From Pedosphaera sp. (GTDB lineage: Bacteria > Verrucomicrobiota > Verrucomicrobiia > Limisphaerales > AAA164-E04): a DNA stretch of 33,084 nucleotides. Both the position numbers and the translations under genes were made by a program. This document shows positions 4,917-16,558 of this stretch, in pieces (positions within the stretch are counted from its first letter, which is position 1; each line of letters opens with the position of its first letter). Where the stretch lies: positions 2,302 to 35,385 of the forward strand of contig NYYT01000109.1 of NCBI GenBank assembly GCA_002686885.1, given 5' to 3'. The notes under the pieces were generated by a model. The model saw only the letters and a program-made list of their open reading frames with translations. It had not been told where the DNA came from and did not search any database.

Positions 4917-6764
4917 ATGAGTGGGTTCATTGGCCCGGAATTGGTGGAACAAATCCGCCAGGCAAACGACATCGTTGAACTCATTCAGTCTTACATACCG
5001 CTCAAGCGCACGGGCGGCACATGGAAAGCGCTGTGCCCTTTTCATAACGAAAAAACTCCTAGTTTCCACGTCAACCCCCAAAGGCAAACCTATTACTGCT
5101 TTGGCTGTAACAAGGGCGGAGATGTCTTCAACTTTCTCAAAGACTATGAAGGATTGAGTTTTTTTGAAGCTGCTCAACGCCTCGCCGACCGAGCCAGTAT
5201 CGAACTGACAACCACCCTTGATCACGGAACCAGTCAGCGATCAGAGCGCAAGAAGGCGCTCCTTCAGCTACACGAACAAATTGCCCATCGGTGGCACCAG
5301 GTTCTCCTGGAGGATCCTCAAGGCGAAAAGGCCAGAACCTACCTCCAGTCTCGAAATGTTTCACTCGAAGCCATCAAGCATTTTCAACTGGGGTATGCCC
5401 CTCTAGGTTGGGATCATCTCATACGCTGGTCGCGGGGTAAAAATTACGATATCCCACTCCTGGAAGAAGGAGGTTTGATCCTTCAAAAACAAACCGGAAA
5501 GGATTATTATGACCGTTTCCGGGGGCGGCTCATGTTCCCCATACATGACGTACAAGGACGTTGCATTGCCTTCAGCGGACGCCTTATTGAGGGAGACACC
5601 AAGGTGGGCAAATACATCAACTCTCCCGAAACACAACTCTTCAAGAAGGGACATACCATCTACGGGCTCGACAAGGCCAAGCGAGCCATCCTGAAGACCA
5701 AATCGGCCATCATTTGCGAAGGACAGCTCGATTTGATTGCCTGCCACATGGCTGGGATCGAAAACGTCGTTGCCCCTCAAGGCACCGCACTGACACTGCA
5801 GCACGCGACCTTGCTCAAACGCTATGCTGAAGAAATTGTCCTTTGCTTTGACGCAGATGAGGCCGGTCAGAACGCCGCCATCCGTTCCATGGATGATCTG
5901 ATTGCATCGGGTCTGAATTTGCGGGTCGTCAAGATCCCTCACCCTCATGATCCCGACAGCTACATTCAGGAGCACGGCCACGAAGCCTTCTCACAACGGG
6001 TCGATCAAGCCGACGGCTTTTTTGATTTCCTTCTTCAACGACTGCGAGCCAGCCACCCGCAAAACACGGACAAGGATCGTATGCTCATCGTTCAATCCAT
6101 GGGACAAGCGGTGGCTAAAACGCGCCACGCCGTAATCATGGACACCTATGCCCAGAAAACCGCTCATTTACTCAACGTGGATGTCGACGCCGTACGCCAG
6201 GAATTCAAGCAAGCTTCGCGCACACCGGCGGCTGCGGTTCAGCTACGAGAGTCTTTGTCTCCGATGGCAAGCGACGAGCCGGAAGCACATCTTTCAGCGC
6301 CCTTGCCTCCACTCCCCCATTGCAATGCCCAGGAATATTGGCTGATGAAGTTGGTTTTGAGTGAAGAGGAAGAAGAGCCTCTGGAGTGGCTTTTCAGCCA
6401 TCTGGACTTGTCATGGATCCAGCATCCCATCGTTCGAACCGTACTCGTAGGGGCACTCGATGCTCATGCGAATCACAAGAAACCGGAAGCACCCGAAATC
6501 ATCCGCCAGTGCGATCACCCGGAAGCTTCCTCCTTCATTACCGAAGCACTGGCCGAGGCACGCAGCATCCCGAGTCGCGAGAGACAATATGAGGAATTGC
6601 TCAAACGGCTTCGGAATCGATTCATCGACCACCAGATTCAAACGCGCAAAAGTCGCCTGGCAACCCTTGCAGACAATTCGGAGGAACAGATTCAAACTAT
6701 GACCGAATTGATGTCCCTGAGGCACTCCAAGAACCAACCACTGACACCTCTGGCGGAAGTCTGA
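4917..6764 (+). CDS. dnaG: DNA primase DnaG
   Basis: This 615-residue protein synthesises RNA primers for replication. The N-terminal CHC2 zinc ribbon is complete, with Cys40, His43, Cys61 and Cys64 (CPFH and CFGC motifs). The catalytic core follows, and its TOPRIM fold shows Glu268 in ICEGQLDLIA and Asp312/Asp314 in CFDADEAG, the expected metal ligands. The C-terminal third, which binds DnaB helicase, is more diverged. Length is normal for the family. The gene starts 6 bases after the TPR lipoprotein stop with no clear ribosome binding site, so translation may be coupled. In many bacteria dnaG is followed by rpoD; here it is followed by a convergent methyltransferase gene only 8 bases away. 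Confidence 0.97.
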   Translation: MSGFIGPELVEQIRQANDIVELIQSYIPLKRTGGTWKALCPFHNEKTPSFHVNPQRQTYYCFGCNKGGDVFNFLKDYEGLSFFEAAQRLADRASIELTTTLDHGTSQRSERKKALLQLHEQIAHRWHQVLLEDPQGEKARTYLQSRNVSLEAIKHFQLGYAPLGWDHLIRWSRGKNYDIPLLEEGGLILQKQTGKDYYDRFRGRLMFPIHDVQGRCIAFSGRLIEGDTKVGKYINSPETQLFKKGHTIYGLDKAKRAILKTKSAIICEGQLDLIACHMAGIENVVAPQGTALTLQHATLLKRYAEEIVLCFDADEAGQNAAIRSMDDLIASGLNLRVVKIPHPHDPDSYIQEHGHEAFSQRVDQADGFFDFLLQRLRASHPQNTDKDRMLIVQSMGQAVAKTRHAVIMDTYAQKTAHLLNVDVDAVRQEFKQASRTPAAAVQLRESLSPMASDEPEAHLSAPLPPLPHCNAQEYWLMKLVLSEEEEEPLEWLFSHLDLSWIQHPIVRTVLVGALDAHANHKKPEAPEIIRQCDHPEASSFITEALAEARSIPSRERQYEELLKRLRNRFIDHQIQTRKSRLATLADNSEEQIQTMTELMSLRHSKNQPLTPLAEV

Positions 6765-7881: not shown

Positions 7882-8784
7882 ATGGTCAAACTACCCGATG
7901 ATGAGAAATCACACTCCGATCATGAAGTCATGGACCAATGGGAGGATTTTGTCAAAGAGCGCTATCCCAAACCACATTCTGAAGAGGCTTTCAACCCAAC
8001 CGATCCCAACAAGCAAAAGGAGGCGTTTCGCGACTATGAGCAAAATGCCCGCCCCAGCGTTCGAGAGTTTTATCGGCAGAACCACACCCATCAGACCTAT
8101 GATTTCGTCCGAGAAAAGAAGAAGCAGTATTTGAGTTTCAGCCAAAAGGAGATGGGGATTTGGGAAGCCGCAGAATTCCTCAACACGCTGGTCGACGACA
8201 GCGACCCGGACACCAATCTCTCCCAACTGCAGCACCTTCTTCAAACCTCGGAAGCCATTCGCCGTGACGACCGTCCGCGGTGGATGATTCTCACTGGCTT
8301 CATCCACGATCTTGGCAAAGTGCTCTGCCTGTATGGAGAACCGCAATGGGCAGTGGTCGGAGACACCTTCCCTGTTGGCTGCGCCTTTTCAGATCGCATT
8401 GTCTTCCCGGAGTTTTTCGCGGCCAACCCGGATATGGCCCAGGCCGAACTGCAAACGCCTCTGGGGGTTTACAAGGAAGGGTGCGGGCTGGATGCCGTGC
8501 ATCTTTCCTGGGGCCACGACGAGTATGTGTATCAGATTGCCAAGCCCTACCTTCCGGCTGAAGGTCTCTACATGCTACGTTACCACAGTTTCTACCCCTG
8601 GCATCGCGAGGGGCAATACGATTACCTGTGCAACCAAACCGATCGTTCCATGCTGAAATGGGTTCTGGATTTCAATCAATATGATCTCTACACAAAGAGT
8701 CATGAGGCCCCGGACCCGGTGGCGCTCAAGCCCTTTTATGAGGATCTGATTGCCGAATTCTTTCCAGCAACCTTGAAGTGGTAG
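7882..8784 (+). CDS. myo-Inositol oxygenase (MIOX)
   Basis: The 300-residue protein aligns by eye over most of its length with eukaryotic myo-inositol oxygenase, the diiron enzyme that converts myo-inositol and O2 to D-glucuronate. All six metal ligands expected from the mouse enzyme are present: His118 in HLLQTSEAIR, His142 and Asp143 in GFIHDLGK, His212 in SWGHDEY, His235 in YHSFYPW, and Asp263 in VLDFNQYDLYTK. The substrate-loop segment GEPQWAVVGDTFPVGC is intact. There is no signal peptide, so the enzyme is cytosolic. It is a single-gene unit between a methyltransferase and a pseudopilin gene, with no inositol transporter or uronate catabolism gene in the window. The ATG at 7882 has no good Shine-Dalgarno sequence. 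Confidence 0.95.
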   Translation: MVKLPDDEKSHSDHEVMDQWEDFVKERYPKPHSEEAFNPTDPNKQKEAFRDYEQNARPSVREFYRQNHTHQTYDFVREKKKQYLSFSQKEMGIWEAAEFLNTLVDDSDPDTNLSQLQHLLQTSEAIRRDDRPRWMILTGFIHDLGKVLCLYGEPQWAVVGDTFPVGCAFSDRIVFPEFFAANPDMAQAELQTPLGVYKEGCGLDAVHLSWGHDEYVYQIAKPYLPAEGLYMLRYHSFYPWHREGQYDYLCNQTDRSMLKWVLDFNQYDLYTKSHEAPDPVALKPFYEDLIAEFFPATLKW

Positions 8785-9722: not shown

Positions 9723-10802
9723 TCAATGACCTTTGGAAAGCTGTCCGCTTTGCACATGCCAGCGATAAAGACGCCGACCCAGTTCGCGTGGCCAATTTTC
9801 TTCCGTACAAGTCATGAACACCTGACCATTGGCATGATGAGCACGTTCCAGAAGGGGGAGCAATCCACTTCGTCGCTGCCGATCCAGCTCCCCCATCACA
9901 TCATCGATCAACAAAATCGGCGGCACTCCCATTTGGTGTGTCAACAATTCGGCTTGAGCCATTTTCAGGGCAATGGCCACGCTGCGTTTTTGCCCTTCAC
10001 TGCCGTAGTCACAAACAAACTGGTTATTGAGCTTAAAGAGGCAATCATCTCGGTGTGGCCCGATCAGGGTTGACTTGACCATTTTTTCTCGGATGGCGAC
10101 GCGACGCAACTCAGAGGCAAAATCCTCACGCGCCGAAGGAGCGTATTCCATGCTGAGCGTCTCAGCATCAGGAGCAATTCTTCGATAGGCTGCCTGAGCA
10201 AGGGGCGCCAATCTGGGGATCAGACGAACCCTGGCATCGATCAAGCTTTGGCCGTGAAGAACCAGCTGAGAAGTAAAGGCCTCCAAAGACCCTGCATCGA
10301 CGCGAGCTTGCTTGAGCAAGGCATTTCGGGATCTCAACAAGCGCACGTATTGCTGCAGACTATGGAGGTAAGTGGGCTCGGTTTGAGCGAGCAAGAGATC
10401 CATGAAACGTCGACGCCCTTTAGGGGATCCCTTGATCAGTTGCAGATCTTCGGTGCAGAAGACCACTGCCCTGAGCAATCCAAGATAATCTTCCAGACGT
10501 TTGACCGGCTCCTGGTCCACACTCAAGCGGCGCTGCTGTGAAGACCAATAGTAACGGATTCGGCAACGCTGTTGCCCCCTCAATTCAGCTCCAACGAACA
10601 GTCCTTTGGCCCCGTGACGAACCATTTGAGAGGCCCCCACCCCGCGAAAAGAGCGGAGGGTTGCCAGAAGATAAATGGCCTCGAGAACATTAGTCTTCCC
10701 TTGAGCATTTTGACCAAGCAACAAGTGAAACCCCGGTTCAAAGGCCTGGTCAGCCTGTTGATAATTTCGGAAATCCCGAAGTCTGAGGTAGGATAAATGC
10801 AT
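9723..10802 (-). CDS. recF: DNA replication/repair ATPase RecF
   Basis: The 359-residue product is an SMC-like ABC ATPase that helps load RecA at single-strand gaps with RecO and RecR. It begins [14 protein letters not shown], a characteristic RecF start. The Walker A motif is GQNAQGKTN at residues 30-38, the signature motif is [16 protein letters not shown], and Walker B is [12 protein letters not shown]. The frame runs upstream to 10856, overlapping the preceding gene, but the homologous start is the ATG at 10802. recF is often found with dnaA, dnaN and gyrB; here it lies 50 bases downstream of a secreted haem protein gene and upstream of a pseudopilin gene. Confidence 0.95.
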
Positions 10803-10852
10803 GGTTCCGGCGGAGAGTGCAGGTGCCGTGAAGCATCGATGCGGATCAACCC

Positions 10853-13800
10853 TCAATCTGCCTGAATATAGGCCATCAGGTCGGCGACTTGTTGCTTACT
10901 GAGACCATCCAACAATCCCTCGGGCATGATGGAGGTCGAACTGTGTTCACGTGAAGCAATATCTGCCAACCGAATCACGGTTTCATTGCCACCCAAATCC
11001 TTGAGCGTCAGTGTCTGATCGGCAAGATGCGTCACAAAACCGCTCAAAATCGGTCCCTCATCATCCAGGGGGGCAGGTCGAAGTTGAAGGGTGACCAACT
11101 CATACTCTTCCCTCAAGGCAAGGCTAGGATCGATGATCGCCGGCAAAAGAAAGCTCAAGTTTTTCCGGTCATAACCGGTCAATTCCGGACCCACAGCGTT
11201 CCCCTGTCCATGGAGCACATGACAGAGAGCGCATGTCTGTTGGTAAAGCTCCCTACCGGCATCTGCATGCCCAGCGGTCTCCTGAAGGATCTTTTCCACT
11301 TCCCGCATACGCCGTTGCTTGGTTTCCTCCGGTTGTCGCATTCGTCCCCAGATCTCCCGGATCAAGGTTTGCGCTGCGTTGCCCCCCCCCTGTTCACTCA
11401 ATCGTACCAGAACCTCATAGGGAACATCTTCTTTGGGCAGATGGCCTGCCTGCACCGCCCGAAGGGTCTGAAGCGTCCATGGCATGCGTCCTGTCAATAC
11501 GGCCATGGCGGTTGATTGTAATCTCACTTCCAAGATGGACCAATGCGTCAAGAGCCGGCGGGGAATGTCAGGATGTTCCAACCGCTTGAGCGCGTTCAAG
11601 GCCGCCAGGCGCAACACGACGGGTTGAGCCGCATCGAAAGAAAGTTCCAGCATGGTTTCGACCGACGCCCGATCTCCCAATTCAGAGAGTCGATGCAACA
11701 TGTCAGCTCGTTTTTCAGTGGAAGCAGCATTATCCTGGATCATCTTCCGCCCCAGGGCCAATGCCGAAGGGCTCCCTAACCTCATACCGAAAGCCACCCA
11801 CCGGTCATTGGATGGAAACCGTTTGGAGATGTTAGCAATGGCCTCATCCAGGGAAGGAACCAGCGTTTCTATCCCTGAACCTTGAAGGGCTTTTTCCATA
11901 CCATCCACTATGTGGGAGGTCGCATCCTCATCTGGAGCCAATTGCAGCATGCTGGCAACCCTGGCCATCCCCTCTGAATTCTGAAAGGCCATCAATCTTC
12001 TGGCAGCCCGTTCAAGTAGCTGATCGCGAAGAAGAATATCCTGCCAGGCGGTCGCATCCTGCAACCAATCCATCCATCCTTCGGGGTCCTTGTGAAGATG
12101 CTTTTCAAGGGCCCACCATATTTGTTGAGGAATCCAGGGATCATCCATGAGTTCCTGACGTGCCACTAGCGCTCTTGTCAACGAATAGCCTTGAGAAGCG
12201 GGCAAGCGCGCGGCACTGGCAGCCAGTTGGGAAAGCACTTCCAGATCCTTCTCCTGCCTCGCAAGCTTCACCATTTCATCCAGGGTCTCACTCTCAAGAG
12301 AGGTTGAAGGATCACACAAAAGGCGCGAAGCCCAACGGCGCATATGTGGATTGGGGTGCCACAAAAGTGGACGCAGCATGACCTCCTCTGTGTCACGCAT
12401 CTGAGCCAGGGTCCACAAGGCTTCAAGACCCTCTCGCGCGGTTCCATGCATAAGGAGATGGCGAAGTTCGGCTTGGAGGGCTGGCGTCGATTCATGACTC
12501 AGCAATCTCCGAGCCGTGGCGCGGACCCATTGGTTGTCATCATCCAGCAAATCGAGAAGAGACGCCGGCTTCATCGAGGAGAGCTTCCGCCCGGGATTTG
12601 GTCCGGAGGCATCAGATCGCAGCCGATAAATGCGTCCACGTTGTCGATCCCAGTTGTCTCGTGGATCCACATGCGTGATCCTTGCGTCATACCAGTCGGC
12701 GATGTAGATGGCGCCATCAGGGCCGATCGTGGTATGCACCGGACGAAACCATCGATCCTCGGTTTGAAGGGGCGGATCGGTTTCTACGGTTGAGAACCTA
12801 CTTCCATTGGACGAGACGCTCAGGGCATGCACTCGATTGGCAAGAGAGTTGCCTCCAACAAATTTGCCCTCCAGAGATTCCATGGCACCACTTTCGTAGA
12901 GAATCCATTGATGAACCAATCGAACTTGAGACCCTTGGATGGGTAACCCGAAAAAATGCCCATAGGTGTAGGGATGGGTGTGCGGACCGTGTTTACCAAA
13001 GGACTTTTGATAATAGCCACCCTGGACAAAATAGACAGCTTGCATGTTTCCGTTGGTTCCTGAATAGAGGCGCCCTGCACTGTCAAAGTCGACACCAAAA
13101 TTATTCCACCCACCCTCTGCGAATAGTTCAAATCGCGCTTCCTCCGGGTGATACCTCCAGATGGTTTGACCGAAGAAGGACTGCACTGGGCTGTCGGGAG
13201 TTCGCTCCACTTTGACCCTGGCAGTCACCGTGCTCCCAGTGGCTCCGTAAAGCCACCCATCAGGGCCCCACTTAAGACTGTTGGCAATGGAGTGGGTGTC
13301 TTCCAGGCCAAAGCCCGAAAGATGCACCTCAGGAGGGCCATCCGGGCGGTCGTCCTGATTGCGGTCTGGATAAAAAAGCAGATAGGGCGGATGCATGACC
13401 CACAACCCTTCGGGATCAAAAGCGAAGGAGGTGCACATGTTGAGCCCTTCGAGAAAGGTTTGATCTGTTTCAAAAAACCCGTCCCCATCCTTGTCCTCAT
13501 GAATGGTGATGCGGTCTTGTCCCCTGAATTTCTGGTGCTCCGGCAGAAGGAATGGAGGTGGGGGTGGCACTGCATCAAAGACCTTGCGCAGATGATTGTC
13601 CCAGGTCAGCACCTCAAGCCCTGCCGGATCTGGATACTGTATATACTGAACCACCCACATGCGCCCCTTGGCATCGAAGTCCACATAGAGAGGCTGCCGA
13701 ATGGATGGCTCATGAGCCACCAGATCCACGGCCAGACCTGCGGAGGTTTGAAGCTTTTGGTGCGCGAGCGTCGGATCCAGTGGCTGGCCCTTGCCTTCCG

Positions 13801-15265
13801 TCAATGCGTGGATGTTGGCATTTCCCTTGTAGCGCTCATAAACCTCCTGAATGCGACGTTGCCGACCTCCCAAATCCGCTTCCACAACCCCTAAGTGTCC
13901 TGCAAAACGATCTCCCACAAGGCGGCGAAAGGCCTGCGCTTCTTCGTGACCTACTGTGGCATCTTCACCTGCATGCCATTGGGACCATGCGGGGGAATCA
14001 CCCGCACGAAACAACCAGGTTCCCTCCAGAGAAAGTGCATCATCCAGGCGGCTCAGGTGCACAGGGCCTTTGAGGATACCGCCTTGCCCACCTTTGTCGT
14101 AAACCCTCCAGGCAACAAGATTCTCTTTGCCGTAACGAATCCATTCAGGATGAATCACAAAGGGACGCCGAATATCACTGGAAGGATCTCCATAGAGGGG
14201 TGGCATCGATCCATTGGCCCCTACCTGAACACCATTGAAAAAAGCCTCATCGACGTCATCGATGCCATCAGCGACCAATAGCAACCGACTGCCTCTCCAT
14301 GATTCAGGTATCGTGAAATAAGCTCGATACCATCCAAATCCATCCAGCTGAGCCCAGCGGCCCGATGGGTCGGATTCCCAGGAACTGGGCACATTCACTG
14401 GGCTCCACCCTTGATGCCAGGAAGCCTCGGATTCTGGCTTTGGCGTTTTGATCTCCGGTACAAGAGAAATCGCATTTTCCCGAAACCCCGCCCAAAGGAT
14501 GGCGTTGCCCAGCATGCGCTGAAAGGGAGCAAGCTGAAAATCCTGCGGGTGGCCGAGCGAGGTGTAAAACACCCTGCTACCGCTATCGAGCTCGCGCACC
14601 CAACTCACCGGCTCCCGTTCCTCAGCTCCCTTGAGATGTCCATGCATCAAAACGCGCGTATCTGCACTCATGTCGCGGTTGCGATAAAGATGCGAGACGG
14701 AAACAAACCCCTCACCTTCGAGTCCCGCCAGGATGGGATGGGATCGATGTTTTTCAACGTAATCAATGACCGACGGTGGGTCGTTGGGTGGCTTGTTACC
14801 GTAATGCCCCTGATAATCGCACCCCAGGATTTCCTGATCAAAATCCTCCCAGCGCACGTGCCCCTGATCGGGAGGGTCACGGTCAAAGGCATGACTGGCA
14901 GTGCGAATGCCTACGACACTTCCACCGCGCTGAAGAAAGGCACGAAGATGGTTCATCTGTTGAGACGGAGGGGTCCGCCGCCGGACACTGATGACGCAGA
15001 CATCGGCATCTTCCAGAGTCTCCAGCCCAGGGAAATCGTCTGGATCATCTTGAGAAACGAGGACAAAAGTGGCGCGAACCAGCGCCGGATCGATGGAAGA
15101 TTGAACAAAAGCTGGCAAGGTGCGAGCCGTCTCATACTCCTGCTCTCCAATCATGAAAACGACCCGAATGGGATCGGAAGGTTCTTGAGCTAGGGCGAAG
15201 GGCGCCAGGTGAAGTGAACAGCACAACCCATAAATCAGGACATAACAGGAAAGTGGAAAGCGCAC
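10853..15265 (-). CDS. Secreted ThuA / beta-sandwich / beta-propeller / HEAT / PVC-type cytochrome c protein
   Basis: This 1470-residue protein starts at a GTG (15265) and has a Sec signal peptide ending near Ala26. Roughly residues 33-265 form a ThuA-like domain (starting RVVFMIGEQEY, with WAGF near its end). About 280-425 looks like a galactose-binding beta-sandwich (DGFGWYRAYFTIP). About 500-890 is a six-bladed propeller of the membrane-bound dehydrogenase type (GRMWVVQYIQYPDP, LKWGPDGWLYGATG). About 895-1310 holds HEAT-like helical repeats. The C-terminus is the Pirellula/Verrucomicrobium-type haem domain, with the haem-binding CALCH motif from Cys1345 and a later SIMPEGL that could give the methionine ligand. 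Such proteins are thought to oxidise sugars or other carbohydrates outside the cytoplasm and pass on electrons, but substrates are mostly unproven. Confidence 0.9.
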   Translation of the reverse strand: MRFPLSCYVLIYGLCCSLHLAPFALAQEPSDPIRVVFMIGEQEYETARTLPAFVQSSIDPALVRATFVLVSQDDPDDFPGLETLEDADVCVISVRRRTPPSQQMNHLRAFLQRGGSVVGIRTASHAFDRDPPDQGHVRWEDFDQEILGCDYQGHYGNKPPNDPPSVIDYVEKHRSHPILAGLEGEGFVSVSHLYRNRDMSADTRVLMHGHLKGAEEREPVSWVRELDSGSRVFYTSLGHPQDFQLAPFQRMLGNAILWAGFRENAISLVPEIKTPKPESEASWHQGWSPVNVPSSWESDPSGRWAQLDGFGWYRAYFTIPESWRGSRLLLVADGIDDVDEAFFNGVQVGANGSMPPLYGDPSSDIRRPFVIHPEWIRYGKENLVAWRVYDKGGQGGILKGPVHLSRLDDALSLEGTWLFRAGDSPAWSQWHAGEDATVGHEEAQAFRRLVGDRFAGHLGVVEADLGGRQRRIQEVYERYKGNANIHALTEGKGQPLDPTLAHQKLQTSAGLAVDLVAHEPSIRQPLYVDFDAKGRMWVVQYIQYPDPAGLEVLTWDNHLRKVFDAVPPPPPFLLPEHQKFRGQDRITIHEDKDGDGFFETDQTFLEGLNMCTSFAFDPEGLWVMHPPYLLFYPDRNQDDRPDGPPEVHLSGFGLEDTHSIANSLKWGPDGWLYGATGSTVTARVKVERTPDSPVQSFFGQTIWRYHPEEARFELFAEGGWNNFGVDFDSAGRLYSGTNGNMQAVYFVQGGYYQKSFGKHGPHTHPYTYGHFFGLPIQGSQVRLVHQWILYESGAMESLEGKFVGGNSLANRVHALSVSSNGSRFSTVETDPPLQTEDRWFRPVHTTIGPDGAIYIADWYDARITHVDPRDNWDRQRGRIYRLRSDASGPNPGRKLSSMKPASLLDLLDDDNQWVRATARRLLSHESTPALQAELRHLLMHGTAREGLEALWTLAQMRDTEEVMLRPLLWHPNPHMRRWASRLLCDPSTSLESETLDEMVKLARQEKDLEVLSQLAASAARLPASQGYSLTRALVARQELMDDPWIPQQIWWALEKHLHKDPEGWMDWLQDATAWQDILLRDQLLERAARRLMAFQNSEGMARVASMLQLAPDEDATSHIVDGMEKALQGSGIETLVPSLDEAIANISKRFPSNDRWVAFGMRLGSPSALALGRKMIQDNAASTEKRADMLHRLSELGDRASVETMLELSFDAAQPVVLRLAALNALKRLEHPDIPRRLLTHWSILEVRLQSTAMAVLTGRMPWTLQTLRAVQAGHLPKEDVPYEVLVRLSEQGGGNAAQTLIREIWGRMRQPEETKQRRMREVEKILQETAGHADAGRELYQQTCALCHVLHGQGNAVGPELTGYDRKNLSFLLPAIIDPSLALREEYELVTLQLRPAPLDDEGPILSGFVTHLADQTLTLKDLGGNETVIRLADIASREHSSTSIMPEGLLDGLSKQQVADLMAYIQAD

Positions 15266-15559: not shown

Positions 15560-16435
15560 TCAAAGAAAGCCATTTTCCTTGAGCCAGAAGAGACAATCCT
15601 TGGTCCAGGCATGCCCGTTGGCCAAACCAATGCCATGCCTGCCATTTTGATACACATGCAAATCAAAGGGCACTCCTGCTTTTCGGAGCCCGTCAGCAAA
15701 TTGAAGACTATTCTCCACAGGAACAGCTTTATCTTCCCAGGTATGCCAGACAAAACAGGGTGGAGTGTTTGGGCTGACCTGCAGTTCATTGGAAAGAGAC
15801 CAAACCAAGGATGGGTCGGGCTTTTCACCCAGCAAATTTTTCTTGGACCCTTGGTGAGTAAAGGCTCCCAGACTCACCACAGGGTAGCACAAGATACCCA
15901 ATGCAGGTCTTGAGCTATGCCTCTCCACAGGGTCTGAAGATGCAGGGTCTCCCGCATCAAAGTGGGTGACGATGGTTGAGGCCAGGTGCCCGCCAGCGGA
16001 GGATCCCATCACCCCAATATGCTCGGGATCTATCCCCCACTCCTTTGCATGGTGACGTGCCACGCGCATCGCCCTGGAAACGTCTTGCCACATGACTGGG
16101 TGCCGATAGCCATGGGTTCCCAATCGATACTTGAGTACCAGGCCAGCAACACCGTTGGAGGCCAACCATTCCGCATAACCCTTACCCTCGTGCTGAGCAA
16201 GATGCCCATATCCTCCCCCTGGACAAATGACCATGCCTGCCCCACTGGCTTGAGCACGCTCAGGAAGGTAAAGCGTGAGGGTTGGCGTATCCTCTTCCTG
16301 CTTACCCAAAGCACCGGGTGCGTCCCCATCCCATAGCCGCACCACTTTTTCCTGGCTTAAGACTGAGCCAGTCTGCGTGAAACACACCACTGCACAAAAA
16401 AGGAGTAGACGGAACATGCACTTTTGGTAGCTCAT
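15560..16435 (-). CDS. Exported alpha/beta hydrolase, acetyl-xylan-esterase-like
   Basis: The product has a signal peptide (MFRLLLFCAVVCF, ending near VLSQ) and a full alpha/beta hydrolase fold. The oxyanion-hole strand is VICPGGGYGHLA, the nucleophile elbow is GVMGSSAGGHL with the central Ser of GSSAG, and the late NGRHGIGL gives the catalytic His; an acid residue lies in TWEDKAVPVE. This pattern resembles the BD-FAE group of esterases that remove acetyl or feruloyl groups from plant or algal polysaccharides. The frame is open from a TTG at 16459; I use the ATG at 16435 (291 residues), and the ATG at 16417 is also possible. It is divergent from the VTT membrane protein. The actual ester substrate is not known. 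Confidence 0.85.
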   Translation of the reverse strand: MSYQKCMFRLLLFCAVVCFTQTGSVLSQEKVVRLWDGDAPGALGKQEEDTPTLTLYLPERAQASGAGMVICPGGGYGHLAQHEGKGYAEWLASNGVAGLVLKYRLGTHGYRHPVMWQDVSRAMRVARHHAKEWGIDPEHIGVMGSSAGGHLASTIVTHFDAGDPASSDPVERHSSRPALGILCYPVVSLGAFTHQGSKKNLLGEKPDPSLVWSLSNELQVSPNTPPCFVWHTWEDKAVPVENSLQFADGLRKAGVPFDLHVYQNGRHGIGLANGHAWTKDCLFWLKENGFL

Positions 16436-16558
16436 GAAAGGTGCAAAGACAACCTTCAATTCATCAGGAGACTGATTGAGTGTGGATCAAAGTATGGACA
16501 GATATCTCACAGGAGTTTACTGACAGAGGCTCATTCAGAAATTAGGGTGGACCATGAC

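Follow-up and report, generated by a model that had tools for sequence, protein, structure and literature searches.

A five-part protein joining ThuA, a jelly roll, a propeller, HEAT repeats and a c-type haem in Pedosphaera sp., and its possible role in glycan oxidation

What is the function of a protein in which a ThuA domain, a beta-sandwich, a propeller, HEAT repeats and a c-type haem are carried on one chain? Such a protein is encoded on the minus strand at positions 10853-15265 of a stretch of 33,084 nucleotides (the window) from Pedosphaera sp. (GenBank assembly GCA_002686885.1, contig NYYT01000109.1). The five-part chain is real. We consider it about evenly probable that the protein is a secreted modular oxidoreductase of the PVC (Planctomycetes, Verrucomicrobia and Chlamydiae) "dehydrogenase" family (DUF7133/TIGR02604), which oxidises a glycan and passes the electrons to its haem. 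The architecture is recurrent and little studied, a variant of a known but poorly understood PVC family. Excerpts of one report describe the PSCyt/PVC cytochrome proteins as being of unknown function, with carbohydrate-binding modules on some of them and an inverse relationship with the genes for glycoside hydrolases (PMC5615132). In the literature on ThuA with PVC or haem proteins and on DUF7133/TIGR02604, subscription papers lying outside the scope, no account of this ThuA fusion was found.

The gene encodes 1470 residues from a GTG start, with an in-frame stop codon four codons upstream; the frame was established by reading-frame analysis and orthologues. Residues 1-26 (15188-15265) form a signal-peptide-like N-terminus with a hydrophobic stretch and an AxA-like site, judged by eye, and export from the cytoplasm is predicted on this basis. 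The ThuA domain follows at residues ~30-262 (14480-15178). It matched PF06283 at residues 64-259 (72.1 bits against a cut-off of 33.4, E 1e-19), was modelled as an alpha/beta domain and matched the ThuA-like structure 4e5v in Foldseek; a PDB sequence search with this domain alone gave nothing significant. The jelly-roll beta-sandwich lies at residues ~283-405 (14051-14419), and a helical linker, seen in the secondary structure of the model, at ~406-495 (13781-14050). The propeller, at residues ~496-885 (12611-13780), matched DUF7133 (3.9e-63) and TIGR02604 (4.9e-77, 259.8 bits against a cut-off of 122.2) over ~498-884. The HEAT solenoid, at ~890-1320 (11306-12598), reached 23.5 bits for PF13646, below the cut-off of 27.7, and was all-helical with high pLDDT in the model. 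The chain ends in a c-type haem domain at residues 1332-1469 (10859-11272; Cytochrom_C/TIGR02603, 2.4e-32, 111.8 bits against 68.15). The AlphaFold models, built from the window protein and relatives from genome contigs, had mean pLDDT values of 91.2 (residues 28-895) and 91.8 (residues 495-1470). Profile searches, models or both thus support each part of the order given in the original prediction, and its wording of a "standard" PVC propeller-HEAT-haem chain is upheld. PVC-type haem-binding CxxCH proteins (TIGR02604/TIGR02603, DUF7133) have this core in common with the window protein, which differs from them in its additional N-terminal ThuA domain and jelly roll.

Closed five-part frames were found in one genome of the same genus (G387, 62% identity) and in two of a sister genus (G388 and G396), with 58-62% identity overall; three further copies (G390, G392 and G394) were truncated or frame-broken. 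Between the window and G387, identity was 60% in ThuA, 76% in the sandwich, 79% in the propeller, 46% in HEAT and 70% in the haem domain. Because the same fused frame occurs in independent metagenome-assembled genomes of the same and the sister genus, an assembly chimaera was ruled out. The other sister genus (G389, G391, G393 and G395) and G431 have the sandwich, propeller, HEAT and haem without ThuA. A recF gene lies downstream in all tested loci of the family with sufficient flank, whether or not ThuA is present, which identifies a single locus with and without ThuA. In the ThuA-less genus, the nearest ThuA of G393 was in a separate frame of 795 residues together with isochorismatase-like and NPCBM domains.

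The haem domain carries one CALCH motif (residues 1345-1349, 11219-11233). Its final 130 residues matched the diheme cytochrome c Kustd1711 (7zs0) at 2.2e-27, and the changed letter of the M292C chain of that protein (7zs1) aligns exactly with M1447 (10925-10927). Excerpts of the published study give Met292 as a distal haem ligand of Kustd1711 and report high-potential His/Met haems of about +350 mV with calcium bound (PMC11791136). Both proteins have CxxCH and an SxMP ligand, whereas Kustd1711 is a stand-alone diheme carrier with no propeller. Both Cys and the His of CxxCH, and the Met corresponding to M1447 (M953 of the profile), were invariant in all 66 rows of profile A4. CxxCH was present in 110 of 112 units, the remaining two being truncated. 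The text pattern SxMPxG failed on 27 of the 112 units, two of these truncated, probably because it does not allow for relatives in which MP is flanked by other letters. These comparisons support a predicted His/Met c-type haem site formed by H1349 and M1447, in agreement with the proposal that CALCH binds haem. In L226, a paralogue from the window's own genome, the chain closes with an azurin/plastocyanin domain and contains no CxxCH, and a protein of genome G223 (L198) also ends in a cupredoxin. Since a c-type haem and a blue-copper domain occupy the same slot, electron carrying is the best explanation of the C-terminal slot and is suggested here as its role. L226 (2439-5312, plus strand) and L198 (1702-5097, plus strand) were DUF7133 proteins with an N-terminal GDSL lipase domain, and L197 (6816-10211, minus strand), the matching locus in G310, is a putative further example.

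At the other end of the chain, the beta-sandwich had been called galactose-binding-like. As a single sequence it reached 21.6 bits for GH2_N, under the cut-off of 28. Its family profile matched the jelly roll of the sialate O-acetylesterase 9ega (2.4e-7) and the carbohydrate esterase FI8 9h4u (3.3e-7), and the model superposed on 9ega_A in Foldseek at 2.3 A over 139 columns. The sandwich therefore stands, and profile and model place it specifically as a CE20/sialate O-acetylesterase/GH2_N jelly roll. The CE20 acetylesterase 9ega and FI8 have this jelly roll in common with the window protein, whose chain differs in having no esterase domain; an esterase is encoded by the upstream gene. With the jelly roll, the ThuA domain, the haem homology and the cupredoxin swap, the proposed pairing of a carbohydrate module and an electron-transfer module on one exported polypeptide is supported.

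Whether the ThuA part is catalytic had been left open. The domain is conserved, and hence not decaying, yet it is non-canonical. In all 14 members of its type, R95, R96, R108, R121, H125, W139, D143, Y151, Y194, W222 and D242 were invariant. The Cys nucleophile of class I glutamine amidotransferases was absent from the elbow in all 14 (GIRTASH-like), and the position after the elbow G-[IL] (R121) was Arg in all 14, in contrast to His in all seven other ThuA domains of the same genome. In excerpts of published work, the N-terminal domain of Agd3 and a levan-binding surface protein have ThuA-like domains that act as glycan binders. Agd3 also resembles the window protein in having a ThuA-like fold that lacks the amidotransferase triad on a carbohydrate enzyme; it differs in that the partner is a deacetylase and the residues are not those of the window domain. 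Because of the missing Cys, the Arg in place of His and the binding role of these tested domains, glycan binding or altered chemistry appears likelier than classical ThuA catalysis.

The same residues bear on a different possibility, namely a catalytic ThuA whose substrate is the product of the oxidation (a 3-ketoglycoside, for example); the chain would then oxidise a glycan and afterwards cleave the glycosidic bond. In its favour, the family-specific residues R95, R96, R121, H125, W139 and Y151 are invariant in all 14. A DUF7133 paralogue of the same genome bears a 3-keto-disaccharide hydrolase domain (PF06439), which indicates that this slot can hold a product-processing enzyme. Proteins with PF06439 have been tied to 3-ketoglycoside cleavage beside the LacABC dehydrogenase, according to excerpts of that report (PMC9007349). 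Against this stand the lost elbow Cys, the exchanged His and the glycan-binding precedents, and we consider a catalytic ThuA unlikely.

For the chain as a whole, we return to the modular oxidoreductase. ThuA and the jelly roll would hold or present a glycan, one sugar unit of which would be oxidised by the propeller; the haem (H1349/M1447) would accept the electrons from the propeller and hand them to the respiratory chain. Thus the original prediction holds in its domain order, its standard core and its idea of two modules on an exported chain, while we infer the oxidation of sugar by the propeller. The carbohydrate links in favour of this reading are the CE20-type jelly roll, the sugar-related fusions of paralogues, the glycan-binding ThuA-like domains of other proteins and a lactose-active relative, Lac161_ORF7, as described in excerpts of its report. 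The domain and fold evidence, the haem homology, the exchangeable C-terminal carrier and the repeated joining of ThuA speak for it too.

Several points weigh against it. Lac161_ORF7 was reported as a hydrolase and not as a dehydrogenase (PMC5342196, excerpts). In a profile alignment with GSDH, the Arg and the GGDE-type loop of the pyrroloquinoline quinone (PQQ) site are not retained in the propeller, and PQQ synthesis genes are rare among the relatives, as detailed below. A conserved sugar operon was also looked for around the 21 ThuA-linked loci and not found. Of their 113 neighbouring open reading frames (ORFs), 102 were scanned; the four of L097, five that are the ThuA genes and two of great length were left out. 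The commonest Pfam family was present in just five of the 102 and GFO_IDH_MocA in two, and PF06439 was not among the 25 listed of 150 families; these counts describe ThuA-linked loci alone, and no enrichment is claimed. The survey shares of ThuA and sandwich given below are biased upwards.

The report on Lac161_ORF7 leads to the idea of a glycoside hydrolase, with the propeller cleaving glycosidic bonds and the haem in a secondary role. Lac161_ORF7 (AGW45552), from a verrucomicrobial clone, consists of TIGR02604, HEAT_2 and cytochrome c domains and is like the window core in domain content; it differs in that no ThuA is mentioned and it is described as a beta-galactosidase in the excerpts. The protein, purified from E. 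coli BL21(DE3), was reported there to release glucose from lactose with a Km of 1.8 mM (PMC5342196). Co-purified LacZ is a caveat to this activity. E. coli BL21(DE3) is a lac+ host, and the Km resembles that of LacZ. The near-universal CxxCH and the cupredoxin swap argue that electron transfer matters, and we regard a glycoside hydrolase as improbable.

A true PQQ-dependent sugar dehydrogenase using scavenged PQQ would retain the oxidation and differ in the cofactor. VIA-align ranked PQQ enzymes first for the propeller: 3a9g (Z 28.5, root-mean-square deviation 3.1, 292 aligned) and the AA12 enzyme 6i1t (Z 28.5), followed by 6jt5 (28.3), 1c9u (26.3), HHIP (24.9) and other propellers at about 22. 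sGDH, Asd and the AA12 pyranose dehydrogenase at the head of this list have the propeller fold in common with the window protein. AA12 enzymes also carry a fused cytochrome. A PDB sequence search with the propeller profile gave no PQQ enzyme among its matches, so the kinship rests on the fold and on a profile-profile alignment with GSDH enzymes from these genomes (94% probability). In that alignment, the Asn of GHRN is retained as N721 (invariant in 40 of 40 propeller rows), the Arg before the last PDG is retained as the nearly invariant R841, and the invariant H658 is one column off the catalytic-type His. The Arg of GHRN is replaced by Gly or Trp, and the GPxGGDE loop is missing. The GHRN Arg, the GPxGGDE loop and the catalytic His take part in the PQQ/calcium site. 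The window protein thus differs from sGDH, Asd and AA12 enzymes in that most PQQ-site residues are not retained in the alignment and in that it has a c-type haem after a HEAT solenoid. Genes pqqC and pqqE were above cut-off in just three of 58 relatives (G404, G406 and G415), of which only G415 is among the 39 genomes that match the window protein. Neither was found in the 11 genomes of the window's family, where pqqC had no match and pqqE none above cut-off. PQQ can be scavenged, so that own synthesis genes are not strictly required. GSDH enzymes are also present in these genomes, one of them with an N-terminal cytochrome. This protein (L181, 1045-2532, plus strand), with a cytochrome c domain before GSDH (PF07995), comes from a sister genus and is another arrangement of propeller and haem. 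Since PQQ-site residues are mostly not retained in the alignment and no PQQ synthesis genes were found in the family genomes, the propeller is best described, by model and sequence, as a sugar-dehydrogenase-like fold with no proven PQQ site. Canonical use of PQQ is unlikely, and a true PQQ enzyme seems quite improbable. Two acidic loops, DKDGDG (residues 591-596, 13478-13495) and DRNQDDRPDG (residues 634-643, 13337-13366), resemble calcium sites and may bind calcium; D591, D595, G596, D634 and D638 were each at least 90% conserved across the 27 paralogues of the genome.

A non-enzymatic surface or periplasmic glycan-binding cytochrome with the propeller as a scaffold is very improbable, because, although propellers of the same fold such as HHIP bind ligands without redox chemistry (a role taken from entry titles), 51 columns, with acidic, His and Asn positions among them, are invariant in the 40 propeller rows, which points to a site for catalysis or metal binding.

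How often, then, has ThuA been joined to this core? In a phylum sample of 387 genomes, 14 had the N-terminal part at E 1e-20 when up to four candidates were scored in each, and 278 had ThuA in general. Profile A2 retrieved 582 relatives from GTDB; the best 80, from Verrucomicrobiota, Planctomycetota and Bacteroidota, were analysed with domain profiles made here. Because the query itself held ThuA and the sandwich, the shares among these 80 are biased upwards: ThuA was N-terminal in 13, C-terminal in one, on a nearby same-strand gene in seven and absent in 59, and the sandwich was present in 27. ThuA, sandwich and core lay on one chain in four (L097, L098, L103 and L110). Among the seven adjacent loci, L162 is weak (local profile E 6e-5, grouping with other ThuA types) and L168 is 2 kb distant. 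Gimesia, Singulisphaera, Gemmata and Aquisphaera are among the carriers of a ThuA that is fused or adjacent. The C-terminal case (L153, 6785-10603, plus strand) has ThuA after the haem domain, in reverse order.

In a propeller tree of 109 rows, the ThuA state (fused or adjacent against none) changed at least 10 times and the sandwich state seven times. Three rows were omitted from this tree: L097, which duplicates L056; L059, whose frame is broken; and L065, which is partial. In a ThuA tree of 60 rows, the state of fused or alone changed 10 times. Both trees are quick ones that leave several forks open, and in the ThuA tree there are also long branches that meet. A single ancient fusion is not supported. 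With ThuA fused in 14 of the 80 and adjacent in seven, the joining of ThuA to the propeller-haem unit is a recurrent event. In the ThuA tree, the fused domain had its nearest relative in a separate ThuA-isochorismatase-NPCBM gene of the sister genus (L207); the 11 kb read around this gene showed no propeller gene. An isochorismatase-like domain precedes ThuA in L103, L110, L119, L120, L128 and L152. Where ThuA is a gene of its own, in L124, L142 and L168, it is likewise an isochorismatase-ThuA fusion. In L207-L210 such a domain is also fused to the window's ThuA type, in L207 after ThuA.

PVC bacteria hold dozens of such cytochrome proteins per genome; the window's genome has 27 DUF7133 ORFs. 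Among these, three carry ThuA, six a GDSL lipase domain, one PF06439 and one a cupredoxin; CxxCH was present in 22, certain frames being cut or fragments. Carbohydrate-linked partners on the paralogues include PF06439, F5/8 C, LamG and GDSL esterase domains. The other ThuA carriers are L085 (ThuA-propeller-CBM_4_9-cytochrome) and L086 (ThuA-F5/8 C-propeller-HEAT, CQMCH). Their ThuA domains fell outside the window's group in the ThuA tree, so the joining of ThuA to the propeller core has taken place at least three times in this genome, in one case together with another kind of beta-sandwich. L086 (4063-8592, plus strand) is an independent look-alike, with an unrelated ThuA type, an F5/8 type C sandwich, propeller, HEAT and CQMCH.

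A wider and more tentative view, which we hold to be possible, is that the DUF7133 family represents a class of enzymes, so far unrecognised, that process glycans oxidatively and use some cofactor other than canonical PQQ. Its members would be built as a kit in which the propeller core and the HEAT arm stand between two exchangeable parts, an N-terminal module and an electron carrier, and the repeated addition of ThuA in this genome would be one instance. The N-terminal module would read the glycan or process the product (ThuA, CE20 jelly roll, F5/8, 3-keto hydrolase, esterase or isochorismatase-like), and the carrier would be a c-type haem or a cupredoxin. The recurrent joining of ThuA and the swap of haem and cupredoxin make this testable: one may ask what glycan is bound by the N-terminal modules, and whether the carrier at the C-terminus is reduced by it.

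The genes around the cytochrome gene were also inspected. Upstream lies a secreted hydrolase like BD-FAE/acetylxylan esterase (15560-16459, minus strand; Pfam and NCBIfam), a possible partner that adjoins the gene in G387 and G394 only. Downstream, recF lies at 9723-10802 on the minus strand (TIGR00611, 2.3e-96; frame 9723-10856). The cytochrome gene ends approximately 50 bases ahead of the likely recF start, and this linkage is retained across the family. ARAGORN called a tRNA-Gln at 5184-5278 (minus strand); it runs antisense within the primase gene dnaG (frame 4917-6764) and is probably spurious. A myo-inositol oxygenase, an enzyme familiar mainly from eukaryotes, is encoded at 7882-8784 on the plus strand (PF05153, 1.2e-111).

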